Shown: piece after piece, positions 4,794 through 18,151 of the stretch | Numbering within the stretch: position 1 is the stretch's first letter | Layout of the letters: each line of letters opens with the position of its first letter | Origin: a virus | Reading direction: 5' to 3' (one strand) | IMG/VR virus record: IMGVR_UViG_3300037117_000075 | Span: 1-24,785 of that record | DNA: 24,785 nucleotides | Program-made: the position numbers and the translations under genes | Notes under the pieces: generated by a model | Database searches by the model: none | Seen by the model: the letters and a program-made list of their open reading frames with translations, nothing else | Told to the model about the DNA's origin: nothing

Positions 4794-4966
4794 GGCTCAC
4801 TTTTCCTTCCACAATAGAGACAGTGGCCGGCGTTGTTGTCGCGCAGAAATTCGCATTTTCCGCTCGGACTTTCCTCGCATGGCTCGGCATCATCATCGAA
4901 ATAGGCAAAGTCAGGATCGAGCATGCCGATGGCTTCGCTCGCATCGTCAATCTCAATCAGTTCCAT
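4790..4966 (-). CDS. Small acidic Cys-rich protein (58 aa)
   Basis: A 58-residue protein with an acidic N-terminal half (MELIEIDDASEAIGMLDPDF, AYFDDDAEPCEE) and a Cys-containing C-terminus (GKCEFLRDN and HCLYCGRKSEP), suggestive of a small metal site. The ATG lies just inside the end of the interrupted gene (10-nt overlap with its stop at 4957), and its stop overlaps the next start by 4 nt. Other frames over this stretch break this pattern of overlaps, so I prefer this one. Function unknown. Confidence 0.6.
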   Translation of the reverse strand: MELIEIDDASEAIGMLDPDFAYFDDDAEPCEESPSGKCEFLRDNNAGHCLYCGRKSEP

Positions 4967-5102
4967 CCCGCATTCTCCACTTTCCTCGGTGCCAGTGACT
5001 TGTGCAAACCATTTATCACCTCAAGCGAACGAATGTGTTGCGAGTGAGCGTTGATCGCTTTCATGCTTATCCGGTTGACGCCCACAGTCCTACATCTTGT
5101 GG

Positions 5103-5501
5103 TCATGTTAGTTCACGCCGGACGCGCACAGGACAACCCCTGTTCTGGCAAAACCCAAGCGTGAGGGGTCCGATTGCTTCCTCGCACTTCGGACAGACCG
5201 TTAATGCCGATGGTGATACTTCGATAGTTTCGACCGGCGCGTAGGCGTGTTCAGCTTTCTCGACGTACATCGCAACTGGCGGCTGCCACGAAACGACGCG
5301 CAGGATGATTGATCCGCCAGCGTTTAGCTGCTCTAGCTCTTTCGGCGTTGGTTCCCATGCACTCTCACACCAACCATTCCCTTGGCGTGGGTCGCCTGTC
5401 GTGCGGATTGCAAGGTGGCCACAATCGCCATCCTTATCGGGACGCCAGCCAGCGGGCGCGCCAAGCCAATGTGAGGCCCCTATAATGCGACGGGAGATCA
5501 T
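5103..5501 (-). CDS. Element 1 cargo: zinc-ribbon phage protein (132 aa)
   Basis: A 132-residue protein. The N-terminal part has HWLGAPAGWRPDKDGDCGHL and GNGWCESAWEPTPKELEQLN, a pattern I remember from small phage proteins of unknown function. The C-terminal part ends in a four-Cys ribbon, CPKC...CQNRGC (about residues 103-124), likely binding zinc. Its final Thr-stop (ACA TGA) lies in the conserved element end and is the same as in element 3. The start overlaps the upstream cargo gene's stop by 4 nt. Function unknown. Confidence 0.75.
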   Translation of the reverse strand: MISRRIIGASHWLGAPAGWRPDKDGDCGHLAIRTTGDPRQGNGWCESAWEPTPKELEQLNAGGSIILRVVSWQPPVAMYVEKAEHAYAPVETIEVSPSALTVCPKCEEAIGPLTLGFCQNRGCPVRVRRELT

Positions 5502-5710
5502 GGTTGCTCTCGCTGATTATTGGCAATGATAAGTTCATCGCACAGTTCGGCAATCGTCATTTCCGACGGCAATTCTTGAGCAACGGCTAAGACGATGGCG
5601 CGCGTAAGATCAAAACTGCGATGCCGTTGCGGTTGCGCAAGGTGATACTTGGTCGGCGTCGCCTCGACAGTGCAGGCGCTTTCAATCGCGTCTTTAATCT
5701 CACTGCGCAT
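5498..5710 (-). CDS. Element 1 cargo: small helical protein (70 aa)
   Basis: A 70-residue protein (MRSEIKDAIESACTVEATPT, then LTRAIVLAVAQELPSEMTIAELCDELI). The ATG at 5710 is preceded by GGAGG, which lies just inside the conserved element end. The conserved CTAGATG start of the other two elements is here followed at once by TAG, so this second ATG is used. It is coupled by a 4-nt overlap to the zinc-ribbon gene. No family recognised. Confidence 0.7.
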   Translation of the reverse strand: MRSEIKDAIESACTVEATPTKYHLAQPQRHRSFDLTRAIVLAVAQELPSEMTIAELCDELIIANNQREQP

Positions 5711-6368
5711 GGGGCCTCCTACATCTAGTGGGTTTCAGAGTTTGTGGGTGTCAACCGGATAAGCATGATCGCTTTCAACTGCATGTTGTCGCCGCGGCGA
5801 AGTCCGCATGACCAGCCGCAGGTGCAATGGAGCGATGTGCTGGCGCCGACATTGCCGCCGATCCAGGGTGTGTGAATCTTGTGATCGCGCACCAATTGCC
5901 GGCCGATCAAATCGCAAATTCGCGCGCCGCTGGTGGTGAGGGAATGATATTTCTGACCGTCGAGTAATTCGGCCAATTTCAATTCACGCAATTGCCGAAA
6001 GGCTGATCGATCAAAGGGCGCGGCCTCGTATTTCTCTTTCATCGCGCGCCAGATCGCCTGATGCGATATGCGTCGGCTCATTTGCAGAAGCGCGAGTTTT
6101 TGCTGCGTCGATAAAGGTTCGATGTTGGCTTCCGCCGGCGGCTGATATTCGACGCGCGGCGCGATCTGCATCCGCTCAGGTAACGGTGTCCAAGTCCAAG
6201 CCTTTGCGATTGCGGTACTCATGACAAACACTCCACACAAAAGGATTACACAGACATAGAACTGCGCCGTGGCACTTCGCCGGTTACACGATGACGGAAA
6301 AGGCCACGGCGCTATCCCGCCGCGCATGGGTTGGGGCAGGGGGTAATGTGCGCGGAGGGAATTCATGA

Positions 6369-6809
6369 TCAGGCAGTTGGGGTTGCCGGTGCAGTAGTCG
6401 CCATGCCAGGGGCAGTAGTCGAAGTGATCGGGGTGTTTGCCGTGACGGCCGCTGCAACAGTCGGGACCGCCGAAGTCAATGACGCATTGTTCGCAGTGAT
6501 GGCGTCGACCGCTGCCTTCACGTCGGCGTCGTCGCTGGCATCGCTCGCGGCAATGGCGGCCTGGAGTTGCGTCGTCAGATCGGCATTGGATTTCACAAAT
6601 CCGTTGAGCGCGAGCGCCGCTGATGTAGTGGCGTCGGTATTAGCCTTCACGGTTGCTGTGAGGGCATCGAGTGTAGCCTTTGTGGCCATGGTGTCGATCT
6701 CCTGGTCTTCGATGATGATGCCCAGCATGAATCTGAGTTCAAGAGCCCATGCTGGCGCATCGGTCCATGGGTCTTGATTGTGATGATGGTCGAGGGCGAA
6801 GAGTTTCAT
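6369..6809 (-). CDS. Ala/Thr-rich helical phage protein (146 aa)
   Basis: Low-complexity protein dominated by Ala, Thr, Asp and Asn: residues from about 41 (MATKATLDALTATVKANTDA) form a long amphipathic helix, followed by an Ala/Thr/Pro tail. The N-terminus (MKLFALDHHHNQDPW, LRFMLGIIIEDQEID) is distinct. The ATG at 6809 has no obvious ribosome site, whereas the internal ATG at 6689 has CAGGAG at 9 nt, so a 106-residue product is a real alternative. Similar Ala-rich proteins occur in tailed prophages; I cannot assign a role. The rightward frame over it is a shadow. Confidence 0.6.
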   Translation of the reverse strand: MKLFALDHHHNQDPWTDAPAWALELRFMLGIIIEDQEIDTMATKATLDALTATVKANTDATTSAALALNGFVKSNADLTTQLQAAIAASDASDDADVKAAVDAITANNASLTSAVPTVAAAVTANTPITSTTAPGMATTAPATPTA

Positions 6810-6854
6810 GTGAGACAATTTCTGCTTTTGGTTTTGGATGCGAATGACTGGTGA

Positions 6855-7040
6855 TCAGGGGTCGGTGCGCAAAGTAGGAACAAGGCGATATGCGATGCCA
6901 TCCGTCACGACGTATCCGGACTTGACGTTGATGCGGTCCTGATTAATCGAAAGCCATGTCGCGCAAAGAACGCCGGCGACAAAGAAAAGCATTGCTATCC
7001 AGGCATATCGATCAAACATTTTGGGAATGCCTTTTTTCAT
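6855..7040 (-). CDS. Small membrane protein (61 aa)
   Basis: A 61-residue protein with one strong transmembrane segment (YAWIAMLFFVAGVLCATWLSI) followed by a short polar domain. The start at ATG 7040 follows a GGTGA; a longer GTG start at 7058 is possible. Together with the next gene it forms a pair of small single-span proteins just downstream (in transcription) of the RlpA-like gene. That position is compatible with a lysis or envelope role (holin or spanin-like), but there is no diagnostic motif. Confidence 0.6.
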   Translation of the reverse strand: MKKGIPKMFDRYAWIAMLFFVAGVLCATWLSINQDRINVKSGYVVTDGIAYRLVPTLRTDP

Positions 7041-7044
7041 CGTT

Positions 7045-7083
7045 CGATCACCAGTCACGATTCCAGAGCGGTCATTGTCTCAA
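7045..7083. repeat. 39-bp imperfect direct repeat, copy A
   Basis: Matches copy B at 7388-7426 with about three mismatches in 39. In leftward reading it begins at the stop codon of one gene (7080-7082) and runs through the intergenic gap into the start region of the next gene. Confidence 0.8.
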
Positions 7084-7376
7084 ATCCTTTTTTGAACGCC
7101 GCTTCCGGTTTTCGGAATTGCCGGACGATGATTGCCAGGGCGCGGTTGATATCCGCCCGACCGTAAAAGATTGGAATCCGGTCTCACGTAACGGTTTTCA
7201 ACTGATCTAACCGTTCGCGTTTCATTCGGACTGATCGCTACAATTTCCGGCTCACTGCGCCGGCGGGTGCTCGTCGCCGCACTCTCATCGATGCGCTTCG
7301 CTATCAATATGCAAGCGAGAAAGACACATGATGCAACAATCGAGATCGAGCAAAACCAAAATATCTCTAACCACAT
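7080..7376 (-). CDS. Membrane-anchored basic protein (98 aa)
   Basis: A 98-residue protein with an N-terminal membrane anchor (WLEIFWFCSISIVASCVFLACILIA) and a basic, Ser/Arg/Pro-rich tail that should be either cytoplasmic or periplasmic. ATG 7376 has a GGAGG site 7 nt upstream and is preferred over a GTG 18 nt earlier. Its stop lies in repeat copy A. As with its neighbour, an envelope or lysis role is possible by position only. Confidence 0.65.
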   Translation of the reverse strand: MWLEIFWFCSISIVASCVFLACILIAKRIDESAATSTRRRSEPEIVAISPNETRTVRSVENRYVRPDSNLLRSGGYQPRPGNHRPAIPKTGSGVQKRI

Positions 7377-7387
7377 ATGCAAGCCTC

Positions 7388-7426
7388 CGATCACCGGTCA
7401 GGATTCCAGAGAGGTCATTGTCTCAA
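7388..7426. repeat. 39-bp imperfect direct repeat, copy B
   Basis: Second copy of the repeat at 7045-7083. It spans the stop codon of the RlpA-like gene (7423-7425) and the gap before the membrane-anchor gene. A local duplication of a gene junction is the simplest explanation. Confidence 0.8.
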
Positions 7427-7917
7427 CCCGAAACGCAGACCCAACCCGTTTGATTCATGCCGAGTCGCCGCGCGGCGCCGCGCGCGAGATCGAGCTTCAC
7501 GCCCATCGCGTGCGCGATGCCGTAGGGCCCGTGATCGTTCACCCGAATAGTGAGCGATTTTCCGGTATGCGGATTGGAGACATTCAAAATGGTGCCGATT
7601 GGATAGATCCTGCTCGCCGCCGTGTTGCCGTTGGCGTTGAAAACCTCACCGTTCGCCGTGCGCCGGCCGCTCCAATAGAACGAGGCGGCGACTTCGTGCC
7701 CAGCACAGTTCCCGGTCGGTCTGACGTGCTGAAAAAACCAAGGGAAGCCGCGCGCATCGGCCGTGCGCATCAAAAGCATGAAGGCGAAGATTGCGATTGC
7801 CGCCATGAGAAGCATCGCTGCAATGCCAGAGACGATCCCGAGCTCTTTGCTGGCGCCGAGCAAGCCAGCGGATCGTTCTTGATTGAAGGTGAAGCCTAGC
7901 GGTTTATAGAAGCCCAT
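7423..7917 (-). CDS. RlpA-like double-psi beta-barrel protein (164 aa)
   Basis: Residues 27-50 form a membrane anchor and 76-164 an RlpA-type double-psi barrel: ASFYWSGRRTANGE, PIGTILNV, RVNDHGPYG (the conserved ND-G-P, 127-133) and VKLDLARGAARRLG. Members of this family are septal-ring lytic transglycosylases acting on peptidoglycan. In a prophage it may be a lysis enzyme or a cell-wall modifier; that role is inference. The ATG at 7917 has GGGGGA 7 nt upstream; a longer frame upstream lacks support. It is an early gene of the leftward operon behind the repressor-controlled promoter near 8340. Confidence 0.85.
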   Translation of the reverse strand: MGFYKPLGFTFNQERSAGLLGASKELGIVSGIAAMLLMAAIAIFAFMLLMRTADARGFPWFFQHVRPTGNCAGHEVAASFYWSGRRTANGEVFNANGNTAASRIYPIGTILNVSNPHTGKSLTIRVNDHGPYGIAHAMGVKLDLARGAARRLGMNQTGWVCVSG

Positions 7918-7972
7918 GCTGCTGTCCCCCGAATGTGTTAGCTTTCCCCGGTCAGTATCCAGGGAGGTAGTC

Positions 7973-8200
7973 ATGTTGCGTTTGCGTGAAATCAAAACGG
8001 TCGAAGCCGATGACACCGAACCAGAATGGCTCTTGGTCACATTCGAAGGTAAGACCGACTATGCGGACGTGACGATTACCCTGCATGTCGAGCCTCAGAA
8101 GAACGACCAGGCCGTGCTGGAATCCGCGCGCGTCGTTCTTCGCGATACCGTCGATCAGCTTCATCGCGAGATAATTGAAAATGCCGTACAGAAACCTTGA
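7973..8200 (+). CDS. Small hypothetical protein (75 aa)
   Basis: A 75-residue protein (MLRLREIKTVEADDTEPEWL, then VTFEGKTDYADVTITLHVEP and a C-terminal amphipathic helix). It looks like a folded beta-plus-helix domain. ATG 7973 has a strong GGAGG 5-6 nt upstream. It is the only rightward gene in the left arm, divergent from the RlpA-like gene with a 55-bp gap that must hold any promoter. Its 3' half overlaps a leftward reading frame. Function unknown. Confidence 0.7.
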   Translation: MLRLREIKTVEADDTEPEWLLVTFEGKTDYADVTITLHVEPQKNDQAVLESARVVLRDTVDQLHREIIENAVQKP

Positions 8201-8255
8201 GTAGGTCTCTGATCTCTACGAGCAGCACTTCAATGCGGTCGGTTGGAAGGCTCAT
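8076..8255 (-). CDS. Possible small leftward leader gene (59 aa), antisense to its neighbour
   Basis: A 59-codon frame starting MSLPTDRIEVLLVEIRDLLK, an acidic/aliphatic helix of a kind I remember in small Rhizobiales phage proteins. It starts right behind a GGAGGGG ribosome site and is the first start codon downstream of the strong leftward promoter at 8315-8342. Its last two-thirds are antisense to the rightward 75-residue gene, so the C-terminus (Arg-rich) may be non-functional. I regard it as plausible only. Confidence 0.4.
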   Translation of the reverse strand: MSLPTDRIEVLLVEIRDLLKVSVRHFQLSRDEADRRYREERRARIPARPGRSSEARHAG

Positions 8256-8256
8256 T

Positions 8257-8281
8257 GCCCCTCCCTGATTTGGTGAGGGGC
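8257..8281 (-). promoter_or_regulatory. Hairpin that buries a ribosome binding site
   Basis: In the leftward transcript GCCCCTC (8275-8281 complement) pairs with GAGGGGC (8257-8263 complement), an 11-nt loop between. The second arm is the ribosome site of the frame starting at 8255, so translation should be low unless the stem opens. It could equally act as a terminator on the rightward strand; no T-run is present. Confidence 0.5.
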
Positions 8282-8292
8282 GGATTAGATGC

Positions 8293-8314
8293 CTCCCCCT
8301 GAATCAGTGGGGAG
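8293..8314. terminator. Hairpin between convergent transcripts
   Basis: CTCCCC (8293-8298) and GGGGAG (8309-8314) form a 6-bp GC stem, with CTGA/TCAG able to extend it. It lies downstream of the rightward gene ending at 8200 and at the start of the leftward transcript. There is no T-run, so a terminator role is tentative. Confidence 0.35.
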
Positions 8315-8342
8315 AGTGTAGCGATATACGCTACGTTGTCAA
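8315..8342 (-). promoter_or_regulatory. Repressor-controlled leftward promoter (pL-like)
   Basis: On the minus strand a perfect -35 TTGACA (8342-8337) is followed by a 16-bp spacer and a -10 TACACT (8320-8315). The operator at 8318-8334 fills the spacer and overlaps the -10, so bound repressor would block it. It points at the long leftward operon. Confidence 0.7.
8318..8334. promoter_or_regulatory. Operator O1
   Basis: Perfect 6+6 palindrome GTAGCG-ATATA-CGCTAC. One of five copies flanking the repressor/lipoprotein operon; it sits inside the leftward promoter. Confidence 0.85.
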
Positions 8343-8348
8343 CAGCAG

Positions 8349-8365
8349 GTAGCGAAAATCACTAC
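8349..8365. promoter_or_regulatory. Operator O2
   Basis: GTAGCG-AAAAT-CACTAC, one mismatch from the palindromic consensus, 31 bp (about three helical turns) from O1. This spacing suits cooperative binding upstream of the leftward promoter. Confidence 0.75.
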
Positions 8366-8425
8366 GGTGTTTTTGGGGCCTGTTTCCCGGAACATCAGGA
8401 AGGGACTCGTATAGGGTCGAAAAAA

Positions 8426-8833
8426 TTAGAGGGTGATGCCGGATTGCCCGCAGACCTGGTGGACGGATGCAGTTTTGTCGTCCGTCCCGCCCATTGCAGC
8501 GACAGCAAAACCCTTGTCCGCGAGGATGCCGAGAAATGGCTTTTCGCCGGTGTAACCACCATAGCTGTTTCGCGCGTTCACATATCCGCAAACAGTGATC
8601 ACACCTTCGCTGTTTTTGCCGCCCCGCATTGTGCCGAACCTTGCGGATTCGGGATCTTTAAGCGACCTGATGACGCCGGCGCGGACGTATTCCATTTGCG
8701 TTTTTGTTAGCATTACAGGCGTCAACTGCTCTAGCTGCACCACTGGCGGCGTCGAAGGCCGGGATGTATATGCCGACGGCGCCGCGCAGCCAGCGAGCAG
8801 GAAAGCAAAAAGTAGCATTGCGTGCGGTCTCAT
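8426..8833 (-). CDS. Prophage lipoprotein co-transcribed with the repressor (135 aa)
   Basis: A 135-residue protein with a lipoprotein signal: basic start, hydrophobic LLFAFLLAGC with lipobox LAGC (Cys16), so it is expected to be exported and lipidated. The mature part has MEYVRAGVIRSLKDPESARF and a VCGYVNARNSYGGYTGEKPF segment, a pattern I recall from uncharacterised proteobacterial lipoproteins. Its ATG overlaps the repressor stop by 4 nt, so it should be made in lysogens. Such genes often alter the cell surface or block superinfection; that is inference here. Confidence 0.85.
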   Translation of the reverse strand: MRPHAMLLFAFLLAGCAAPSAYTSRPSTPPVVQLEQLTPVMLTKTQMEYVRAGVIRSLKDPESARFGTMRGGKNSEGVITVCGYVNARNSYGGYTGEKPFLGILADKGFAVAAMGGTDDKTASVHQVCGQSGITL

Positions 8834-9432
8834 AGGTCAAGCACCGTTCGTCGAACACGTCCAATGACTTCCAGATCGCGTTTTCGCTTCACAAAAATGG
8901 GCTTGTAAATTTGATCAGATGAGTTCGGCTCTAAATACGGGGGAGGTCCCGCATGCCATCGCTTATATGTGGTCTCTCCCCTCACCGAAAAGACGTAGCA
9001 CTTGCCCGAAACCAGGACGCGATCCGACTTATCCACCACAATGATCGAACCTTCGGGCGAAACCCTATCCATCGATCCACCTTCGACCTTGAGGGCGAAA
9101 AAATCTCCCCTGCCGAGATCCGCAAATGCGAGCAGAGGCACGTCTTCGATAGGAATCTGTGACTTCGATTCGGTAAACCGGCCGGCCCTTACCCAATCGA
9201 TTAAAGGGACCTTCGCTGGGACGTTTGGGGATGGTATAGACAGCCCGGTTGTAGCCTCTATCGCCAATAACTCATCAGCGGCCACGGATCGATCTCCTGC
9301 GATCATTTTATTCACAGCCGCGCGATCCACATTCCGGCGTAACTCCTTTGTAATGCGGCGCGCCAGTTCGGCTTGACCGCCGGCAATTTTTACAGCCGAA
9401 GCAACCCATTGGTTCAAAGAACGAATTTGCAT
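8830..9432 (-). CDS. CI/LexA-type self-cleaving phage repressor
   Basis: A 200-residue repressor. The N-terminal part (about 1-60) is a helix-turn-helix DNA-binding domain (GGQAELARRI, AAVNKMIAGDRSV). The C-terminal part is a peptidase S24 domain: cleavage site Ala83-Gly84 in VRAGRF, nucleophile Ser120 in EGGSMD and general base Lys157 in TTYKRW. It should cleave itself upon RecA activation and induce the prophage. The ATG at 9432 lies 9 bp beyond operator O3 without a ribosome site, and a -10-like TACATT ends 6 nt upstream of it, so the mRNA is probably leaderless, as for lambda cI. A longer open frame upstream reads through the operators and is rejected. Confidence 0.93.
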   Translation of the reverse strand: MQIRSLNQWVASAVKIAGGQAELARRITKELRRNVDRAAVNKMIAGDRSVAADELLAIEATTGLSIPSPNVPAKVPLIDWVRAGRFTESKSQIPIEDVPLLAFADLGRGDFFALKVEGGSMDRVSPEGSIIVVDKSDRVLVSGKCYVFSVRGETTYKRWHAGPPPYLEPNSSDQIYKPIFVKRKRDLEVIGRVRRTVLDL

Positions 9433-9441
9433 GCGAATAAT

Positions 9442-9458
9442 GTAGCGTAGAACGCTAC
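9442..9458. promoter_or_regulatory. Operator O3 (repressor promoter)
   Basis: Perfect palindrome GTAGCG-TAGAA-CGCTAC. Read leftward, its final TAC forms the start of the -10 box (TACATT) for the repressor gene. The matching -35 position (AGACGG) is poor, as expected for a weak maintenance promoter. Confidence 0.85.
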
Positions 9459-9466
9459 ATCCGTCT

Positions 9467-9483
9467 GTTGTGGGTTTCGCTAC
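9467..9483. promoter_or_regulatory. Operator O4 (degenerate)
   Basis: GTTGTG-GGTTT-CGCTAC: one perfect half and one degenerate half, 25 bp from O3 and 33 bp from O5. This middle position recalls OR2 of lambdoid phages. Confidence 0.55.
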
Positions 9484-9490
9484 ATGAGGC

Positions 9491-9519
9491 TTGCCATCCG
9501 TAGCGCGAATCGCTACAAA
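9491..9519 (+). promoter_or_regulatory. Rightward early promoter (pR-like) with operator O5
   Basis: -35 TTGCCA (9491-9496), 17-bp spacer, -10 TACAAA (9514-9519). Operator O5, GTAGCG-CGAAT-CGCTAC (9500-9516), fills the spacer and overlaps the -10. Predicted transcription start is about 9526-9527, which is the GTG start of the Cro-like gene. Confidence 0.7.
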
Positions 9520-9526
9520 TGCTCCC

Positions 9527-9787
9527 GTGGAACCCGCACAGACAATCATTCGCAAGTTAGGTGGCCCGAATGCCGTGGCGAAAATCGCCGGGCTACATCG
9601 GACAAGGGTTTCCAGTTGGCAGCGTTCGCGCGCTGCTGGTGGTACTGACGGACGAATTCCCCAAAAGCACATTCAGGCGCTACTCGCGTTCGCGCGCGAA
9701 CAGGGTCTCGATCTAAAGGCCGAAGATTTTCTCGACAACGAAGCCCAATCCGCCCCTCGCCCTGAAACAGCAGGGGTGGCGCGATGA
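9527..9787 (+). CDS. Cro-like helix-turn-helix protein (86 aa)
   Basis: An 86-residue Cro/YdaS-like DNA-binding protein: IIRKLGGPNAVAKIAGLHRTRVSSWQRSR is a classic helix-turn-helix of this group, followed by IPQKHIQALLAFAREQGLDL. It is divergent from the repressor and shares the operator region, so it is the likely Cro counterpart. The frame is open back to 9491, but that would translate the operator and the -35. GTG 9527 coincides with the predicted transcription start, so a leaderless start is favoured. Its stop overlaps the next ATG by 4 nt. Confidence 0.85.
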   Translation: MEPAQTIIRKLGGPNAVAKIAGLHRTRVSSWQRSRAAGGTDGRIPQKHIQALLAFAREQGLDLKAEDFLDNEAQSAPRPETAGVAR

Positions 9788-10359
9788 GTTCTGCACAAGC
9801 TCGCGGCATCGTCAAAAACCCTAGTGCTTTGCCTCAGACTGTAGAGGCGATTTACGTGGATCATGGAGTGCGCCTATGGACTGCGCTGCAACGATCTCGC
9901 GCGCGAAAAAAGCCGCATGGCCTAATCGAACTTCGATGCGCTGAAATTCGGATGTTCCGACTTGGACGCGGCGGGCACTTCGCCAATCTCAATTATGACA
10001 CCGCCCTTGCTGTCATGAACCATCATGGCAAGGGGCTGCTCGGCACCGAGGAATTCTTCGCTGCCGCCTTCGGTGTGACCGAAAGAACGTCCCGGCGCAG
10101 CGACCCGCGCGTTACCGGCCTCGATGCACCGCGCACCAGCAAGTTCGGCGTGATGCAGGCGACCGGAAACATGTGGACGTGGGGACACGACGGCGATCCC
10201 GACGAGCCACAAGCTTCTCTCTTCGGCGGCGCCTGGAGCTTCGGCGCGATCTGCGGGTCGCGCGCGTCGAACTGGTACGTCACTCCGTCGCTCTCGTACG
10301 ACGGCATCGGGGCGCGCGGCCGCTGTGACCACCTGCAACCTGAATATCCGTCGCGATAG
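9784..10359 (+). CDS. Mtd-like C-type-lectin protein, apparent DGR target (191 aa)
   Basis: Residues from about 95 resemble the lectin-fold variable domain of Bordetella phage Mtd: TEEFFAAAFGVTE, SKFGVMQATGNMWTWG, LFGGAW, CGSRASNW, PSLSY and the near-invariant GIGARGRCDHL at the end. In such proteins the last ~40 residues are diversified by a retroelement. The varying positions here (Ser, Phe, Ile, Tyr, Val, Leu, Tyr, Asp) are all encoded by NNC codons, as expected if AAC codons in a template were mutated at A. The N-terminal half is unlike Mtd and the protein is about half its length. No reverse transcriptase or template repeat is visible in the window. It is translationally coupled to the Cro-like gene, an odd place for a receptor-binding protein. 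Confidence 0.75.
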   Translation: MSSAQARGIVKNPSALPQTVEAIYVDHGVRLWTALQRSRARKKPHGLIELRCAEIRMFRLGRGGHFANLNYDTALAVMNHHGKGLLGTEEFFAAAFGVTERTSRRSDPRVTGLDAPRTSKFGVMQATGNMWTWGHDGDPDEPQASLFGGAWSFGAICGSRASNWYVTPSLSYDGIGARGRCDHLQPEYPSR

Positions 10360-10365
10360 CGACGG
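10348..10365 (+). other. 7-bp hairpin at the end of the lectin gene (IMH-like)
   Basis: CCGTCGC-GATA-GCGACGG, a perfect GC-rich stem with a 4-nt loop that overlaps the stop codon (10357-10359). In Bordetella phage a GC-rich hairpin with a 4-nt loop just behind the variable repeat is needed for retrohoming. A terminator is less likely since no T-run follows. Confidence 0.5.
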
Positions 10366-10448
10366 CTCGTGAGCGCCGCTTGTGGCGGCGGCGTTAGTTC
10401 CCAGTCAGTAGCGCGTGCGTGTTTCCCATTTTCACAGAAGGGAAAGCC

Positions 10449-10733
10449 ATGTCTGGATTCTGGCGCAGACTATTCGGCCGCAAGGACGAATTCGACTTCG
10501 ATGACGAGCTCGCAAAGCTGGTCGCCCAGATGCCGCCAACTGCGGCAACACCTGCCGCTGAACTTCGCAAACCCACGCGCTCATCCGAAGAGGCAAGATG
10601 GCCGCCCCACGTTCTGCCTCGCACACCGACATCGACCCCCATGCCAAAGAACATCGCAAAGTCGAAGGCGCCGAAGCGTGTTGCCAATGCGCGACCGTCG
10701 GCAAAATCTAAAACCCATAAGAGCAGGTTATGA
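10449..10733 (+). CDS. Basic tail hypothetical protein (94 aa)
   Basis: A 94-residue protein: MSGFWRRLFGRKDEFDFDDE start (amphipathic, possibly membrane-associating), then a Pro/Thr/Lys-rich basic, probably disordered tail. ATG 10449 has AAGGGAAAG upstream; a longer start at 10419 is open. Its TGA overlaps the next ATG (10730-10733). Function unknown. Confidence 0.65.
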   Translation: MSGFWRRLFGRKDEFDFDDELAKLVAQMPPTAATPAAELRKPTRSSEEARWPPHVLPRTPTSTPMPKNIAKSKAPKRVANARPSAKSKTHKSRL

Positions 10734-11185
10734 CCACCCTTCGCATCCATCTGCCCGCCATCACCGAGCCGTCGATCGGCGTGCCTTTGCCGCTGCAATT
10801 GGTGGCCGCACTTCAGGCGTCATATACGGACGGCGGCGTTACGTCACCGCGCGCGTCGAGCCAGCCGGCTGCCTGGCCCATCTTTAAAATGCAGGCGGCA
10901 AGGTGGCGCGCCACCATCGGGTTCAATAATATTTCGATCTCGCTGCCGCCGCGCGTCGCCATGCGAAATCCGATGCCGGCGTTTAAGAGGCCGACGGAAA
11001 AGGCCTCGACCTGCGGCATGGCCAAGAGCTCGCGCTCGTTGATCGGCTCGGGCTTCTTGTCATCCATCGCCCGCGACCACTCTTTCATCTCCGCATCCGT
11101 GAAGGCCGTGCGTCGGTTCATCGTCGTTCCTTCCGAAAAATTTGCCCAACTCATCATAAAGCCTTTTCGAGCGGGAGGGTATGCA
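10730..11185. mobile_element. Moron-like insertion bracketed by 15-bp direct repeats
   Basis: ATGACCACCCTTCGC occurs at 10730-10744 and again at 11186-11200, where it is the start of the next rightward gene. The 456-bp segment between the repeat starts holds one complete leftward gene. Deleting one repeat plus the segment would leave the upstream gene's stop overlapping the downstream ATG in the ATGA style used throughout this operon. A moron inserted with duplication of the downstream gene start is inferred. Confidence 0.6.
10813..11121 (-). CDS. Leftward moron-like gene (102 aa)
   Basis: A 102-residue protein: MNRRTAFTDAEMKEWSRAMD, then AFSVGLLNAGIGFRMATRGGSEIEILLNPMVARHLAACILKMGQAAGWL. 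It has normal composition and a very good GGAAGGAA ribosome site before ATG 11121, whereas the rightward frame across it is Ser/Arg-rich and unconvincing. It runs against the surrounding operon, so it must have its own promoter, probably between 11122 and 11185. No family recognised. Confidence 0.75.
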   Translation of the reverse strand: MNRRTAFTDAEMKEWSRAMDDKKPEPINERELLAMPQVEAFSVGLLNAGIGFRMATRGGSEIEILLNPMVARHLAACILKMGQAAGWLDARGDVTPPSVYDA

Positions 11186-11449: not shown

Positions 11450-11676
11450 GCAACTTCGACTTGAAACTGCCGCGCTGGACACATGCAGAGGACGCGTTCC
11501 TGCGCGCACAGTGGTTAGCCGGCGCTTCCATGTTGACGATTGCTGGAATACTGTACGGCAGATCGCGCGGCGCGGTCGCAGGTAGGATCTCACGGCTACA
11601 CCTCAAGCTTTCCAAACTCGAGCGCTTACGCCGCATTTCAGCGGGATCCGCGATCGGTCGGGGAGCGGCGCCATGA
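11446..11676 (+). CDS. GcrA-like regulator (76 aa)
   Basis: A 76-residue protein matching the N-terminal DNA-binding part of GcrA: WTHAEDAFLRAQWLAGASMLTIAGILYGRSRGAVAGRISRL follows the W-T-x-E...LRxxW...G.S...IA..L...SR.AV.GR..RL pattern. GcrA is an alphaproteobacterial cell-cycle activator that works with sigma-70 at CcrM-methylated promoters; phage versions are common. The C-terminal sigma-binding part of GcrA is absent. It is coupled at both ends through 4-nt overlaps, the downstream ATG being that of the left 24-bp repeat. Confidence 0.85.
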   Translation: MSNFDLKLPRWTHAEDAFLRAQWLAGASMLTIAGILYGRSRGAVAGRISRLHLKLSKLERLRRISAGSAIGRGAAP

Positions 11677-11773
11677 GCCACGCCCAGCACATCGCCACCG
11701 CTTTAATGTCTTGGCTTGCTCGGCGTTGGCACAATCTTGGTGACGTGCGCCAGCATATTATCGCTAAACGATT

Positions 11774-12544
11774 CATGCTTATCCGGTTGACACACACAGG
11801 TACTAGATGTTGACGCTGGCCGAACCGCACATGACCGAACCGCAGCCGCAACAGGTAGTGGCTACGGCGCGCGCGCGCGGAACCGTGGCCGCGCTCTACG
11901 TCGCCGATGGTGGATGCTATTGCGACCTGCCCGGCGTTGAGCCGTGGGACGAAGCCAAGGACGCGCGCACCTATGCTGGCCCTTGGCCGGTCGTGGCGCA
12001 CCCGCCCTGCCAGCGGTGGGGAGCGATGGCGTCGGTCAATTACGCTCGGTGGGGCGGCGAACATAATCGTCCCGGCAACGATGGCGGATGCTTCGCGGCC
12101 GTGCTTGCCGCTGTCCGCAAATGGGGCGGCGTTCTCGAGCATCCAGCCAAATCGCGTGCATGGGCTTACTACGATCTCCCGAATCCGCCCTCGCATGGCT
12201 GGATACGGACGTTCTGTGGCGGGTGGGTCTGCGAAGTATGGCAATCGGCTTACGGTCATCGCGCTGCGAAAGCCACATGGCTTTACGCTGTCGGCTTGGA
12301 CCCGCCTCAATTGAACTGGCTGCGCTTGCCGGGAACACATCAAATCGGGTTTCACGACCAGCGCGGACCTGATCGCAACAAGCCGACGCTCAGCCGACGT
12401 GAGGCAAGCGCGACGCCACTTGCGTTCCGAGATTTGCTGATCTCGATTGCGCGCGCGGCGCATCCCGACGCTACAGGTAGATAGCCATGGAGACACAATA
12501 TGTGGGGTCATTTTCAGCCTGTGTGTGTCAACCGGATAAGCATG
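11774..12544 (+). mobile_element. Cargo-bearing mini-transposon, element 2 (771 bp)
   Basis: The ends are perfect inverted repeats for 27 bp starting CATGCTTATCCGGTTGAC. The flanks are AAACGATT (11766-11773 and 12545-12552), an unambiguous 8-bp duplication. It carries one rightward gene and no transposase. It is inserted in the leftward moron-like gene, in the opposite orientation. Compared with elements 1 and 3, its upstream end lacks about 12 bp between the terminal repeat and CTAGATG. Confidence 0.95.
11807..12484 (+). CDS. Element 2 cargo: PPC-motif methyltransferase-like protein (225 aa)
   Basis: A 225-residue protein with VVAHPPCQRWG (about residues 61-71), like the catalytic PPC motif of C5-cytosine methyltransferases, and VLEHPAKSRAW, like the following ENV-type motif. 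Further conserved-looking segments are DGGCFAAVLAAVRKWGG and GHRAAKATWLYAVG. The FxGxG SAM motif near the N-terminus is not seen, so it may be a divergent or non-methylating member. Related proteins are, from memory, common small phage genes. ATG 11807 is part of the conserved element end (CTAGATGTTGA); ATG 11831 is an alternative. Confidence 0.8.
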   Translation: MLTLAEPHMTEPQPQQVVATARARGTVAALYVADGGCYCDLPGVEPWDEAKDARTYAGPWPVVAHPPCQRWGAMASVNYARWGGEHNRPGNDGGCFAAVLAAVRKWGGVLEHPAKSRAWAYYDLPNPPSHGWIRTFCGGWVCEVWQSAYGHRAAKATWLYAVGLDPPQLNWLRLPGTHQIGFHDQRGPDRNKPTLSRREASATPLAFRDLLISIARAAHPDATGR

Positions 12545-12870
12545 AAACGATTTGAACGCCACCAGGCTGTAGGCCGCCATCTTTTGCTCATCCGCATCGG
12601 CGGTGCTTGCGGCCGCCTTCTGCAACGATGCCTCAGCATCGCCCATGATCTGCGCGATGAAAGTGACCGGGTTGCTGGTGTTGGCGGCGATGTGAGCCAG
12701 CAGCGTGAACATCACGGTTTCAACGGCCACTTGGCGGCCGCGCATCTCGGCAGTGAGTTCTTCCATTTTGCCCCCCAATTCAAGTTGGCGCCGCAGCCAC
12801 TCTCTGCTGCGGCGCTGGGCACCGACTGTGGCCGCTGGCGCGCATTGCTGCAAGCCAATGAGGCCGCACA

Positions 12871-13236
12871 ATGAGCCACGCCCAGCACATCGCCGATGTT
12901 CTTTCCACGCTGATTGGCGTTACTGAAATCATCATCAAAGACCATGCATGGCTCATCGACATGGCAGCGCTGGTCGATCTCGACACCGAAGTCGACAACG
13001 CGCGCGCCCTCATGATCGAAGGCGGCAATCCGATCGGGGCGGAAGCCTCGATGCTGATCGAATGTCTCGCGCATGTTGGTCGCTGCCGGGGCACGATTGA
13101 GCGCGATCTCGAAACAAAATGGTTGGCAATCGCCGCGGCGCTCCTGCCGATGGTGCAGGAAAATCTAGCCGAAGCGTTCGAGCGCTTGCGTCCGATGCCG
13201 GCTGATCATGTCGCCCGGGGGGGGCAGTATAGGTGA
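12871..13236 (+). CDS. Hypothetical helical phage protein (121 aa)
   Basis: A 121-residue, largely helical protein (MSHAQHIADVLSTLIGVTEI, AALVDLDTEVDNARALMIEGG, RGTIERDLETKWLAIAAALL). No motif recognised. Its first eight codons are duplicated at 11673. Before the insertion its ATG would have overlapped the GcrA-like gene's stop. Its stop is close to or overlapping the start of the methyltransferase. Confidence 0.75.
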   Translation: MSHAQHIADVLSTLIGVTEIIIKDHAWLIDMAALVDLDTEVDNARALMIEGGNPIGAEASMLIECLAHVGRCRGTIERDLETKWLAIAAALLPMVQENLAEAFERLRPMPADHVARGGQYR

Positions 13237-13241
13237 GCAAA

Positions 13242-15224
13242 ATGAGCAAGCGCGTAAAATCATCGGCCAAGAAAAAGCCCGCGAAACGCACCTTCAAGAC
13301 TTTGAAGGCGGCAGGCCGCGCGATCATGGAAAGAAACACGCGCGCGCAAGCGATGGTGCGTGCCCGGATACGTGCCTCAGCACCTGGATTGAGCGTGGTT
13401 TGTCCTATCTGCAAAGTGCCTAAAGACATGTGGTGCCTACGCCGGCGGCAATCAGGCAGCGTCGTGGTGGCGAGTGATCTTCATGCCGACCGCGTTGATG
13501 CCGCGCGCATGAAAGCTAAAGTGAAGCTCGGCACCGGCACGCCGGCCGCGCCCGACGCGATGACGCGGCGGATTGAGCGGCTGGAGATGCCGAAAGGCTT
13601 TGGACCGCGTCCGGCGAATACGCGCTGGCCGGCCGAGATATCGATCGGCAAGCGGCATCGCAAGGAATTTGGCGACATCGAGGCACTGGCGCTTTCCTAC
13701 AACGAGCGCGGCGCCATCATCCAGCCGATCGCGATCACCACCGACAACAAGCTGATCGCCGGCGAACGCCGCATCAAGGCCTGGCTGCATCCGAAATCTA
13801 ACTTCCGCGATCAGCCCATGCCCGTGCACGTGATCACCGTCGATTCCATCGTCGCCGGCGAGTGGGATGAAAACGCTCACCGTAAAGACTTCACACCATC
13901 AGAAGCCGTTGCCATCAAGCGCGAGATCGAAGTGCTGCTCAAAAAGCACGCCAAGGATCGCCAGCGCGCGCACGGCGGCACGACCCACGGCAAAAAATCA
14001 AACGCAACCGACAAACTCAATGTCCGCGACCGCGCCGCCGCGATGACCGGAAAGAAACGCAGCTCGCTCGACAAGGCAGAAAAGATCGAGGCCGCCGCCG
14101 AGCAAGATCCCAAGCGGTTCGGCAAGCTGCGCGACGATATGAATCGCACCGGCCGCGTCAATGGTCCTTTCAAGCGCCTGCAGGTAATGCAGCAGACCGA
14201 TGCGTTGAGGAAGGCGCCATCACCGCTGCCGATGTGCGGGCCCTACATGGCGCTCTCGATCGACTATCCATGGCCGGCCGAACGCGATGCCGAGCAGATC
14301 GACATCGATAAGCGCGGGCGCTCGATGCGCAACTATCCCGAAATGGCGATCCCGACCGGCGAGAAGCTTTTCAAATCGAAAGAATTCCGGGCACTGATCG
14401 CGCCGGATTGCACGGTCTACTTCTGGACCACGAATTTCCACATGGAAGAGGCTTTCGTGCTGCTCAACGCCATGGGCTTTTCTGGCCACTCGACCATCGG
14501 CACCTGGGTGAAGAATAAAATGGGCCGCGGCCAGGTGCTGCGCGGCCAGACCGAGCATTGCATCATCGCGACGCGCGGCAAGCCGACCATCAATCTCACC
14601 AACCAGACCACGGCCTGGCAGGGCAACGGCTGGGACGTGCGCGAGGACTCGCGCAAGCCCGATGCATTCTACGCCATGGTCGAGGAACTGACGCCGGCGC
14701 CGCGCTATGCGGAGATATTCTCGCGCGGCGGGCGCAACGAAAAGTGGGATTGCCATGGCGACCAGGCCGGAGAGTTTACGCCGGCGCCGGCCAAGACCGA
14801 GCGCAAGTCTAAATCGGTCCGCCGCACGCTGCCCGGCCGCAGCGCCAAGCTGATCAGCTTTGCCGAAAAGCACGGTCACATCGTCTCTATGACGATCGAT
14901 GCCGCGACGAATGAAAGCGTCGGCACCTGCGCCTGCGGCTTCGAACATCGTGAGCAACGCGACGAGCTCGCCCAGGACGATCCGGAAGGCATCAAGCTTC
15001 GCATCGCGCGCGCGAAGGCGATGGATGCCGTGGTCACAGAACACTGGCGTGAACAATGTGAGGCTCAATCTAAGCCGACCGCGGATGAACCGGCGGCTAC
15101 GGCGCCGGCGGGAAATGGTGAAAAGTCTGCCAAGTCTGCCGCCATTCCCGCCGGCGATTCCGAACAGCTCAAAATCCCTGGCTTCCTCGATCGCAACGCG
15201 CCGGCAGCGGAGGCCGCAGAATGA
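13242..15224 (+). CDS. ParB-domain / MT-A70 adenine methyltransferase fusion (660 aa)
   Basis: A 660-residue multidomain protein. After a Lys-rich start and a CPIC...WC zinc motif (about 54-65), residues about 120-215 form a ParB/Srx-like domain (IEALALSYNERGAIIQPIAITTDNKLIAGERRIKAW). Residues about 330-500 are an MT-A70 N6-adenine methyltransferase: MALSIDYPWPAE, VYFWTTNFHMEEAFVLLNAMGF, TIGTWVKN and EIFSRGGRNEKWDCHGDQ. The family catalytic DPPW is DYPW here, one substitution. The C-terminal tail has another CACGF motif. Such fusions are frequent in alphaproteobacterial phages and probably protect phage DNA. The start at 13242 has AGGTGA upstream; GTG 13233 would overlap the previous stop. 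Confidence 0.9.
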   Translation: MSKRVKSSAKKKPAKRTFKTLKAAGRAIMERNTRAQAMVRARIRASAPGLSVVCPICKVPKDMWCLRRRQSGSVVVASDLHADRVDAARMKAKVKLGTGTPAAPDAMTRRIERLEMPKGFGPRPANTRWPAEISIGKRHRKEFGDIEALALSYNERGAIIQPIAITTDNKLIAGERRIKAWLHPKSNFRDQPMPVHVITVDSIVAGEWDENAHRKDFTPSEAVAIKREIEVLLKKHAKDRQRAHGGTTHGKKSNATDKLNVRDRAAAMTGKKRSSLDKAEKIEAAAEQDPKRFGKLRDDMNRTGRVNGPFKRLQVMQQTDALRKAPSPLPMCGPYMALSIDYPWPAERDAEQIDIDKRGRSMRNYPEMAIPTGEKLFKSKEFRALIAPDCTVYFWTTNFHMEEAFVLLNAMGFSGHSTIGTWVKNKMGRGQVLRGQTEHCIIATRGKPTINLTNQTTAWQGNGWDVREDSRKPDAFYAMVEELTPAPRYAEIFSRGGRNEKWDCHGDQAGEFTPAPAKTERKSKSVRRTLPGRSAKLISFAEKHGHIVSMTIDAATNESVGTCACGFEHREQRDELAQDDPEGIKLRIARAKAMDAVVTEHWREQCEAQSKPTADEPAATAPAGNGEKSAKSAAIPAGDSEQLKIPGFLDRNAPAAEAAE

Positions 15225-15451
15225 GGCCGGATGTTTGGTACGATCGGCGCGTCGGTGACAACGTGGTGCGCGTGCGCCACTTCCATAACGCGCCACTGCG
15301 CGTGCAGGCGCGTCCGACTGAGCCAGCGCAGATCATCATCCTGCCGGTGATCCGCATCGAGCGCCGGCGGCGAGATATTCCCTCCGTATTTTGTTTCGAA
15401 CTGCCATGTGACTGCGGCGAGTCTGACATTCGCGAACAGCCGCCGCCTTAA
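15221..15451 (+). CDS. Hypothetical protein (76 aa)
   Basis: A 76-residue beta-rich, Arg-rich protein (MRPDVWYDRRVGDNVVRVRH, QIIILPVIRIERRRRDIP) ending in CDCGESDIREQPPP. It is coupled by a 4-nt overlap to the methyltransferase. No family recognised. Confidence 0.65.
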   Translation: MRPDVWYDRRVGDNVVRVRHFHNAPLRVQARPTEPAQIIILPVIRIERRRRDIPSVFCFELPCDCGESDIREQPPP

Positions 15452-15534
15452 CCGGCGCAGCTGACGGTTTCACTCAAGTAGCCATTGCGTCGCCGCGGGA
15501 CGTTTTCCCGCCACGGGAGAGCTTTGCGCCGCAC

Positions 15535-15837
15535 ATGACCCTCTTCGGACGCCGCATCATCGTCACCACGCTCGATCCGGTCCCACGCCTATTCCGCGCG
15601 GCATCCGGTGTGCTGGTGATGAACGCGCGCGAGATCGAGGCCTTCGAGCAGCATGACCATGGCGTATTCGCGATGGTGGTCGACATCTGCAAGGCCGAGG
15701 ACATGGCGGAAGCAATCCTGCAGCTGTGCCCGCGGCGCGCGCGTCGGCGCCGGCCATTCTCACCCTCGGCGCGGCTTTTCATGCTCGGCGCGGTGTCGCC
15801 GGGCCGACGCGAAAACATCATGGAGAAGCGATCGTGA
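15535..15837 (+). CDS. Hypothetical protein (100 aa)
   Basis: A 100-residue protein: a beta/alpha N-terminal part (MTLFGRRIIVTTLDPVPRLF, FAMVVDICKAEDMAEAILQL) and an Arg-rich C-terminus. The ribosome site before ATG 15535 is weak (GGGAGAG at 14 nt). In the 84-bp gap before it, GCGGGA/TCCCGC can form a hairpin. The TGA overlaps the next GTG. The leftward frame over the same DNA is less protein-like. Confidence 0.55.
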   Translation: MTLFGRRIIVTTLDPVPRLFRAASGVLVMNAREIEAFEQHDHGVFAMVVDICKAEDMAEAILQLCPRRARRRRPFSPSARLFMLGAVSPGRRENIMEKRS

Positions 15838-16370
15838 AGCAATCAAAGGCTATGTCGCTGATCGAGAGTCTACTCAATATCGCGGTCGGCTTCGGCATTT
15901 CGCTGGGCGCGCAGGTGTTCTTTCTACCGCTGCTCGGGGTGACGATCGACTTCAAGCAGAACCTTTATTTTGCGCTGATCATGACGGTGATCTCGATCGC
16001 GCGTTCCTTCGCGCTGCGGCGGGTATTCGAGATGCTGCACATCCGTCGGCCGCTGTCGCCGGCAATGCATGCAGTGATCGCCGAGCGCTTCCACCAGATC
16101 GAGGGCGAGGGCTTCGGGACTTCCCATGATGATGGCCATGCTGCCGGCGAATTGGCGCGCGCCGGTGCTTGCTATCTGGCGATCGCCGGGCGCGGGCAAG
16201 CTGGCGATCCGCCGCGGCTGTGGCCGTGGGCTGACCAATGGTGGAATCCGAAGGATACGCGCCGCGACCTGGTGCGCGGCTTGGCGCTGGCATTAGCCGA
16301 GCTCGAGCGCTTCGACCGCAAGCGAAAGAGGGGGGTATATGAGCAAGTTGCGACCGATCGCTGCGGTTAA
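15834..16370 (+). CDS. DUF7220-like membrane protein with C-terminal domain (178 aa)
   Basis: The N-terminal ~65 residues (MSLIESLLNIAVGFGISLGAQVFFLPLLG, ALIMTVISIARSFALRRVFE) form two membrane helices of the kind I remember as DUF7220 in phages. The C-terminal part (FHQIEGEGFGTSHDDGHAAGELARAGACYLA, WPWADQWWNPKDTRRDLVRGLALALAELERFDR) is a domain usually found as a separate phage protein, so this looks like a fusion. The start is GTG 15834 (overlapping the previous stop) or ATG 15852. It overlaps the next gene by 32 nt. Confidence 0.75.
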   Translation: MKQSKAMSLIESLLNIAVGFGISLGAQVFFLPLLGVTIDFKQNLYFALIMTVISIARSFALRRVFEMLHIRRPLSPAMHAVIAERFHQIEGEGFGTSHDDGHAAGELARAGACYLAIAGRGQAGDPPRLWPWADQWWNPKDTRRDLVRGLALALAELERFDRKRKRGVYEQVATDRCG

Positions 16371-17145
16371 GCTCCCCGGCGTGAAAGTGCAGCTGCCGGC
16401 CGGGGCGCGGCCCGAGCTGTTCTGGATTCCACCAACGGGACTCCTGGTCGATGAGGCCTATCAGCGTGGGCTCTCGAAAGAATCCTATCGCCTGATCCGT
16501 AAGCTTGCTGCCGGCTTTGCCTGGAACCGAATGAAGCCGCCGATCGTGGTCAAGACCGAGAGTGGATGGCATGTGATCGACGGCCAGCATACCGCGATCG
16601 CCGCCGCATCGATCGGACTCAAGGAAATTCCGGTATTAATGGTCGAGGCCGGAACAGCGCAGATCCGCGCCGCCGCTTTCGTCGGGCACAATACCGATCG
16701 CATGAGAGTGTCGCCTATCGCAGTTTACCGGGCAATGGTGGCGGCCGAGGATCCCGATGCTCTCGATGTTGCGAACGTATGCCGGCGCGCCGGCGTGAGG
16801 ATCTGCGCCTTCAACAATGCGAGCGTGGTCGCCGAAGGCGACACCATGGCGATCGGCACCATCCGGGCGCTGATCAAGAAACGTGGCGTGCGCAAGTCGC
16901 GTTTCGTGTTGGAGGCGCTTCGCAAGGGCCGGCTGGCGCCGATCTCGGCGCATGAGATCGCTGCGGCCGACCGGCTGATGCATGGGCTGCCGCCCGGCTG
17001 CGACATGGATGTTCTGGCGGCGATCGTGCGCGCCGACCCCGACGGCTTCCATCTCGCGCGCGTGAGCGCAGTCAAGCAGAAGAGGCTCGTGTGCGACGTT
17101 CTGGCGGAACGCTGGGCGGCCGCACTGGCGAAGGTGAAGGTATGA
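16339..17145 (+). CDS. ParB-like nuclease-fold protein (268 aa)
   Basis: A 268-residue protein. Residues about 35-105 are ParB-N-like: VDEAYQRGLSKESYRLIRKLAAGFAW, PPIVVKTESGWHVIDGQHTAIAAASIGLKEIPVLMV, where VIDGQH is the equivalent of the GxxR/H segment. The rest is helical (DALDVANVCRRAGVRI, IRALIKKRGVRKSRFVLEAL). This fits the phage DUF6551 type from memory. A role in DNA binding or single-strand nuclease action is inferred. It has its own GAGGGGGG ribosome site inside the preceding gene. Confidence 0.8.
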   Translation: MSKLRPIAAVKLPGVKVQLPAGARPELFWIPPTGLLVDEAYQRGLSKESYRLIRKLAAGFAWNRMKPPIVVKTESGWHVIDGQHTAIAAASIGLKEIPVLMVEAGTAQIRAAAFVGHNTDRMRVSPIAVYRAMVAAEDPDALDVANVCRRAGVRICAFNNASVVAEGDTMAIGTIRALIKKRGVRKSRFVLEALRKGRLAPISAHEIAAADRLMHGLPPGCDMDVLAAIVRADPDGFHLARVSAVKQKRLVCDVLAERWAAALAKVKV

Positions 17146-17262
17146 CCAGCGCTGCGCGCCTGAATAATAAACACATCGTTGTGCTGCGCACGTTGGCCAA
17201 GTGCGACACCACCGCGCGCGGCATCACACTTCCGAAGTGGATGAGGCGGCCATCGATTCACC

Positions 17263-18151
17263 CATGCTTATCCGGTTAACGCACACAAACGCTGAGACCT
17301 ACTAGATGTTGATGCCACGGATCATCTGTCGGTTTTCTTGCGGCGCGGCCTCGGCTGTCGCCACCAAGTTGACGCTTGGCAAATATGAGCGTGAACGCAT
17401 CGAAATAAGTTATTCGAACCCCGGCTCAGAACACCCCGATAACGAGCGTTTTTTGGCCGACTGCCAGAGGTGGTTCAATCATCCTATTACCGTCCTGAAA
17501 TCGGACAGATACGCCGATACATGGGCTGTGTGGGAGGGCGTGCGGTTCATCACTTCGAAAGCAGGAGCCCCTTGCACGGGCATCCTAAAGCGAGAGCCGA
17601 CCTACGCGACGGCCAGGCCAGATGACATCCTTGTCTTTGGCTATACGGCCGAAGAAAAGGACCGGGCGGAATCCTTCCGCAAGCAAAACTTTGAAATTGT
17701 GTTCGAAACGCCGTTGATTGAGGCGGGTCTGACCAAGACAGACTGTCTCGCGATGATTGAGCGCGCCGGGATCAAACTGCCAGCCATGTACCTGCTTGGC
17801 TATCACAACAACAACTGCGTTGGCTGCCCAAAGGGCGGGATGGGCTACTGGAACAAGATCAGGAAAGACTTCCCCGAGGTATTTGAGCGCATGGCAGCCC
17901 TACAGCGCGATCTAGGCCGAGGATCGGCGTTCTTCCGAGACGGACGGCACAAAGGCGCTAAGCGGATCACGCTGGACGAATTAGCCCCCGACCGAGGCAA
18001 CCACGATACCGAACCGAAGATCGAATGCTCAATGCAATGCTACGCCGCAGAACGGAATTTTACATGACCACAACATCTAGGGCTGTGTGTCTAAACCGGA
18101 TAAGCATGGATACCAAGGGAGGTATGCGTGGGACGCAACCGGATAGGCATG
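17263..18151 (+). mobile_element. Cargo-bearing mini-transposon, element 3 (889 bp)
   Basis: The left end is CATGCTTATCCGGTT (17263). On the right there are two terminal copies: an inner one ending at 18108 (CCGGATAAGCATG) and an outer, slightly diverged one ending at 18151 (CCGGATAGGCATG). The 8-bp duplication GATTCACC at 17255-17262 and 18152-18159 fits only the outer end. It carries one rightward gene and no transposase. The inner parts of its ends match those of element 1 closely. Confidence 0.93.
17306..18067 (+). CDS. Element 3 cargo: PAPS-reductase-like ATP pyrophosphatase (253 aa)
   Basis: A 253-residue member of the adenine-nucleotide alpha-hydrolase / PAPS reductase superfamily. 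The PP-loop is FSCGAASAVATKL (SxGxxS) near residue 8; SNPGSEHPDNERFLADC, GYTAEEKDRAESF, CVGCPKGGMGYWNKIRKDFPE and the terminal CSMQC follow. Phage members of this group have been linked to sulfur- or nucleotide-related DNA chemistry and to defence systems such as Dnd, but the reaction of this one is unknown. ATG 17306 is the conserved element start (CTAGATGTTGA). The last codons ACA TGA lie in the conserved right end. Confidence 0.88.
   Translation: MLMPRIICRFSCGAASAVATKLTLGKYERERIEISYSNPGSEHPDNERFLADCQRWFNHPITVLKSDRYADTWAVWEGVRFITSKAGAPCTGILKREPTYATARPDDILVFGYTAEEKDRAESFRKQNFEIVFETPLIEAGLTKTDCLAMIERAGIKLPAMYLLGYHNNNCVGCPKGGMGYWNKIRKDFPEVFERMAALQRDLGRGSAFFRDGRHKGAKRITLDELAPDRGNHDTEPKIECSMQCYAAERNFT

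Follow-up and report, generated by a model that had tools for sequence, protein, structure and literature searches.

Transposase-less gene cassettes with IS1595-type ends in a phage genome, very probably mobilized in trans

The viral sequence analyzed here in its full length of 24,785 nucleotides (IMG/VR record IMGVR_UViG_3300037117_000075, positions 1 to 24,785; hereafter the window) carries three short elements that share inverted ends and are each bordered by a perfect target duplication. We consider it highly probable that they are phage-adapted mobile insertion cassettes of the IS1595 type, moved in trans by a transposase of a phage-borne IS1595 clade, and they are part of a large family, to all appearances undescribed, whose members in uncultured phages are mostly cassettes with a single gene. 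Exchange between phage genomes, which are mosaics, is usually ascribed to recombination; the ends, duplications, and empty sites described below provide direct sequence evidence of single accessory genes transposing among uncultured phages as cassettes, and suggest that phages may trade genes, notably DNA-modification genes, by transposition.

Results

Three inward-facing pairs of the 15-base end CATGCTTATCCGGTT are evident in the window, with exact copies at 5062 (+) and 5753 (-), 11774 (+) and 12530 (-), and 17263 (+) and 18094 (-), and a further copy with one mismatch at 18137 (-). When up to three mismatches are allowed, the window holds 8 matches compared with 0.43 expected and a maximum of 3 in 100 shuffles. 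The 8-bp duplications ATCGCTTT, AAACGATT, and GATTCACC that border elements 1, 2, and 3, respectively, are each perfect (8/8), and each is different. A sequence-only reading of this DNA had claimed three segments with common inverted ends, each with its own perfect duplication, and on both points it is borne out.

The features of element 3 are as follows.

17263..18151, plus strand: element 3, non-autonomous cassette of 889 bp with a double, chimeric right end (ends, duplication; empty site in viral contig L286)
17255..17262, no strand: left 8-bp duplication GATTCACC (right copy 18152-18159; one copy, GATCCACC, in L286)
17306..18067, plus strand: cargo, 253 aa, phosphoadenosine-phosphosulfate-reductase-like (PHROG 424; weak SspD-like match)
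18094..18108, minus strand: inner right end, with no duplication beside it
18109..18151, minus strand: outer right end, adjoined by the duplication
17142..17262, plus strand: 5' part of the 95-codon gene cut by element 3 (3' part 18160-18326; joined frame)

The L286 contig carries the target gene of element 3 intact, 96% identical over 95 aa, and its DNA, from a 93%-identical relative, spans both flanks gap-free with the single 8-bp copy; the L286 record was searched for CATGCYTATCCGSTT and no match was found. The cargo, whose PHROG family is placed in the category "moron", has homologues in two other cassettes (L096 and L101) and in an autonomous copy (L151). The right end that had been claimed for this element proves to be one of two, the outer (18137-18151) and the inner (18094-18108) lying 43 bp apart, and the outer alone is bordered by the duplication. 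The first 35 bp of the outer right end are those of the 5' end of the autonomous copies L157, L162, L168, L203, and L212 and of the L079 element, with at most three mismatches.

This chimeric end, together with the up to ~44 bp of left end that cassettes with unrelated cargo have in common, would fit a reading in which the common ends serve mainly as anchors for homologous recombination that swaps cargo, transposition being rare. We regard this as unlikely, since anchored recombination alone does not produce an own 8-bp duplication at each insertion or empty sites. A search within 300-bp flanks for a pair of phages with the same insertion site and duplication but different cargo found none.

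The features of element 1 are as follows.

5062..5767, minus strand (that of the cargo): element 1, non-autonomous cassette of 706 bp (15/15 identical inverted ends, 8/8 duplication, contiguous relative at the site in viral contig L291)
5054..5061, no strand: left 8-bp duplication ATCGCTTT (right copy 5768-5775)
5103..5501, minus strand: cargo ORF, 132 aa, no assigned function (weak PHROG 34105 match, E=8e-5)
5498..5710, minus strand: cargo ORF, 70 aa, no assigned function (an ORF of viral locus L182 is 45% identical)
5725..6366, minus strand: gene cut near its 3' end by element 1 (joined frame; uninterrupted relative in L291)
4957..5061, minus strand: 3' remnant, 34 codons, of the gene cut by element 1 (joined frame)

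The last 13 codons of the gene at 5725..6366 are supplied by the end of element 1. In L291 the homologue of this gene is uninterrupted, with 76% identity over 118 aa spanning the junction.

The features of element 2 are as follows.

11774..12544, plus strand: element 2, non-autonomous one-gene cassette of 771 bp (inverted ends and duplication)
11766..11773, no strand: left 8-bp duplication AAACGATT (right copy 12545-12552)
11807..12484, plus strand: cargo, 225 aa, PHROG 12600 family, function unassigned (PHROG E=1e-69)
12545..12766, minus strand: probable gene (MEELTAEMRG...) cut near its 3' end by element 2 (joined frame)

The remnant of this probable target gene lies at about 11702-11773, and removal of element 2 restores, on paper, a 95-codon minus-strand frame. 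A relative of the target gene was looked for and none was found; the nearest relative phage lacks the whole stretch around the site. The cargo, whose start codon falls within CTAGATGTTGA, has homologues in cultured phages, in two autonomous elements (L112 and L191), and in a cassette (L102). It matched no Pfam family and no PDB relative, and its structure model is of modest confidence (mean pLDDT 67); the presence of PPCQ and LEHP motifs suggests a candidate cytosine-methyltransferase-like core.

The claim that excision restores an open frame is upheld on paper by the joined frames at all three elements. That each element interrupts a gene is supported for elements 1 and 3 by uninterrupted relatives, which also answer the concern that related phages might offer no empty sites, and is left without such a relative for element 2. 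Phage-type cargo, likewise claimed for all three, is evident in elements 2 and 3 and comes down to one weak match for element 1.

A search of the window for a transposase gave a best tblastn match of E=0.002 over 46 aa, which is not convincing, and the window elements are therefore called non-autonomous derivatives rather than insertion sequences (ISs). Longer copies with the same ends, whose existence the sequence-only reading had proposed to check, are found in other phage contigs, where they encode an IS1595-family transposase together with passenger genes. The transposase has the IS1595 zinc ribbon and DDE_Tnp_IS1595 domains (Pfam PF12762/PF12760) and scores above the curated cut-offs, at 111-118 bits for PF12762 (cut-off 27), 44-47 bits for PF12760 (cut-off 25.4), and 182 bits for NCBIfam NF033547 (cut-off 75). 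The autonomous relatives have perfect 8-bp duplications, and their ends and those of chromosomal IS1595 elements are related. The description of the window elements as transposase-less cargo elements with common ends stands, and transposase-bearing copies with the same ends exist. Identical ends, relatives of the cargos of elements 2 and 3 beside a transposase (L112, L191, and L151), and the 35-bp end shared by element 3 together tie the window elements to this enzyme. No close transposase was found in cultured phages, the two that were recovered being 22-26% identical.

Integron-like gene cassettes, moved site-specifically, would also consist of a single compact gene per unit and carry many cargos. 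Here, however, each site has a different 8-bp duplication, no stable single-strand fold of the attC kind is formed by the left end of element 2 or element 3, and the enzyme encoded by the longer relatives is a DDE-family transposase rather than a tyrosine recombinase; the duplications and the transposase-bearing copies refute this reading.

The trans-acting enzyme might instead be the host's ordinary chromosomal IS1595 transposase. The window itself lacks a transposase, and the chromosomal relatives, 60-67% identical to the phage enzyme, belong for the most part to plain ISs ~1.1 kb long, which have ends of a similar kind (e.g. CGTGCCTATCCGCTTGACG) and are likewise flanked by 8-bp duplications. 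Most chromosomal ends, however, show 1-4 deviations from the 15-base end, exact copies of which are rare in one bacterial host family (15 matches in 9 of 392 genomes), and the outer end of element 3 matches that of phage-type autonomous copies. We judge a host enzyme to be a distinctly less probable source than a phage-borne one, at perhaps one chance among several.

More than 300 bp of extra DNA, i.e. passengers, is present in 52 of 54 viral elements as against 12 of 35 genomic ones (p=1.5e-10), and the transposase tree groups 52 passenger-type rows, of which 45 are viral and 7 come from bacterial genomes, in a clade with SH-aLRT support of 99 that includes no plain IS.

The sequence-only reading had allowed that the repeats might be ordinary regulatory motifs present without duplications. 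In the viral collection exact CATGCTTATCCGGTT is found in at least 120 stretches, of which many hold a pair with duplications, whereas a complete scan of that collection with the reversed 15-mer gave 6 matches and 0 pairs. All fetched viral loci together yield 118 distinct elements whose 8-bp duplications are perfect; a control motif in the fetched viral loci gave 39 pairs, 0 with a duplication. A transposase is encoded in 51 of the 118 and absent from 67 (median 594 bp), a proportion that depends on how the loci were gathered, one scan having been selected by transposase. Most of the transposase-less elements are compact one-gene cassettes.

Decay offers another account of such elements, as immobile IS1595 remnants akin to MITE-like relics in which the coding sequence is incidental: they are short and without transposase, and in L014 an HNH gene sits inside the transposase gene. 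Against it, the elements retain intact ends and duplications, a single ORF takes up a median of 82% of a cassette compared with 50% of random windows, the cargo families are diverse and some also occur as free phage genes, and close copies lie at different sites, with L011 and L071 98% alike and L110 and L125 92% alike, each pair having unrelated flanks and different duplications. We consider decayed relics very improbable.

The cargo of the cassettes is enriched in DNA methyltransferases, to the approximation that the control allows. The 52 cargos examined include at least 9 from DNA methyltransferase families, 1 Mom-like, and 4 phosphoadenosine-phosphosulfate (PAPS)-reductase-like proteins, while among 55 neighboring ORFs at least 1 is a methyltransferase (in the PHROG control, from the best 25 of 73 families). 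The resulting contrast, 10 of 52 cargos versus 1 (at least) of 55 neighbors, gives a Fisher p of 0.003, or 0.03 with Pfam alone, and is approximate because the flanking-ORF control includes spurious frames. Sulfur-transfer enzymes and a TnpB are also found among the cargo.

Of 51 autonomous copies, 29 have a promoter-like site (TTGACA, 16-18 bases, TAnnnT) in the upstream end and 1 has it in the opposite end, and 1 cassette of 57 has it, so the cassettes seem to be without the promoter of the autonomous copies. Among 47 cassettes with a confident cargo call, 35 point the same way as the flanking genes (p=0.001), a result that depends on those calls, as a cruder assignment of the cargo strand gives 33 of 57, which is not significant. 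The left end sets a stop between 12 nt before and 8 nt after the cargo start in 1.68 of the 3 incoming frames per cassette, compared with 0.71 in shuffled sequence and 0.72 at ordinary ORF starts; cassettes with a common leader are not independent, and the result holds for 25 leaders that are <70% identical. In elements 2 and 3 the incoming-frame stops at the cargo start lie in TAGATGTTGA. The frame that actually enters element 3 stops 26 nt upstream of the start, i.e. the tightest frame is not the one used. These arrangements are consistent with a translational coupling of the cargo to incoming translation.

Discussion

In the mechanism that we propose, one or two phage genes would be held between ends recognized by the phage-borne IS1595 transposase clade, and the transposase, supplied in trans from larger copies that other phages or prophages carry, would insert the cassette and leave an 8-bp duplication. 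The ends and cargo families held in common, together with the empty sites, point to such mobilization in trans by a related transposase. The cargo, apparently having no promoter of its own, would most likely be expressed from phage transcription crossing the site, and the end sequence would aid its expression by bringing incoming translation to a halt at the start codon of the cargo. The genes carried are accessory genes of phages, among which DNA modification enzymes are over-represented, and may benefit the phage.

A more ambitious reading is that of a phage-specialized gene trade, in which the phage IS1595 clade captures single phage genes, especially those for DNA modification (anti-restriction), in promoterless cassettes whose ends act as landing pads: translation arriving from the interrupted gene would be stopped at the cargo start codon, allowing the cargo to be expressed at any site of insertion. 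We put this forward tentatively, rating its chances somewhat below even.

The sequence-only reading knew of no described family with these ends. This does not hold for the transposase, which belongs to the described IS1595 family, but does for the one-gene cassettes of phages: no description of phage-borne one-gene IS1595 cassettes, of their cargo bias, or of the start-codon arrangement was found in the literature, most subscription papers and preprints aside. IS1595 elements with passenger genes (tIS, e.g. ISNha5) have already been reported (PMC11891212, citing Siguier et al. 2009). They share with the autonomous phage copies the transposase family, the 8-bp duplications, and the passengers; a transposase with passengers is found in 52 of 54 phage autonomous copies and not in the window copies. 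The present family differs further in occurring mainly in uncultured phages, and in that transposase-less one-gene forms are about as common as complete ones (67 versus 51 in this sample).

The window elements are closer to mobile insertion cassettes (MICs), of which the qnrD MIC is a known example (cited in PMC9229222, reference 16); MICs have cargo between IS-type ends, no transposase, and presumed movement in trans, and IS-type inverted ends enclosing cargo with no transposase are what the window elements show. The cassettes described here differ in carrying dozens of different phage genes, in having phages as hosts, and in the start-codon arrangement within the end. MICs have been described for bacterial and plasmid genes.

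Integron gene cassettes are also compact, promoterless one-gene units common to many genomes, but they move by attC x attI recombination, whereas the elements here transpose with target duplication. Phage morons likewise place accessory genes between or within phage genes; they are usually described as having their own promoter and terminator, while the cassettes have transposon ends and are seemingly promoterless.

With the end motif as a simple handle, such cargo can be located and phage genes that have moved horizontally can be recognized; the cassettes are also small enough for immediate testing. The motif is absent from 50,697 cultured-phage records, where a low-stringency search gave one partial, non-significant match, and this absence may explain why the family went unnoticed; a low-stringency search of plasmids gave no match. 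Four cassette regions in genomes of the one bacterial host family were also examined: three, scanned jointly, gave mixed phage and cellular matches that are not attributable region by region, and the other lies amid phage-type recombination genes (Erf, RecE, ParB-like).

Doubled element ends, and a direct repeat on either side of element 2

In a group of autonomous, transposase-encoding copies (L162, L168, L212, L157, L161, L203 and L079) the 5' end is doubled, the outer end being followed about 40 bp inward by a partial second CTATCCGGTT end; the right end of element 3 in the window is likewise doubled. Element 2 lies between the two copies of a direct repeat, ATGAGCCACGCCCAGCACATCGCC, found at 11674 and 12871 of the window, each time at the start of an ORF. 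Because a related phage, L286, lacks the stretch between these repeats, element 2 included, the region may also have been lost by recombination.

Cassette cargo and an interrupted transposase gene

The cassette at L058 1253-2408 has IS1595-type ends, is flanked by the duplication ATATCAGA, and carries TnpB alone (Cas12f1-like, OrfB_IS605). Another, on a bacterial genome contig (G114:C51:27849-28709, equivalent to L345 9850-10710), has intact ends, the duplication CCCCCTTC and a DNA-methyltransferase-like ORF with the motifs TDPPF and DPFMGSGTTG. In the loci L014 (400-2382) and L204, the IS1595 transposase gene is interrupted by an HNH endonuclease that also has an HTH and shares one reading frame (307 aa) with the zinc ribbon of the transposase, as a fusion; the transposase looks to have been invaded by a homing-type endonuclease.

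Other genes of the window

66-1679, at the left edge, large serine recombinase containing both a Resolvase and a Recombinase domain
18447-19118, ORF whose product has a long run of Gly-Tyr/Gly-Asp repeats (GYGYGYGYSDGYGDG)
23128-23814, phage-encoded NusG-like protein

The recombinase at the left edge suggests that the window derives from a temperate phage. The Gly-Tyr/Gly-Asp repeat arises from a simple DNA repeat.
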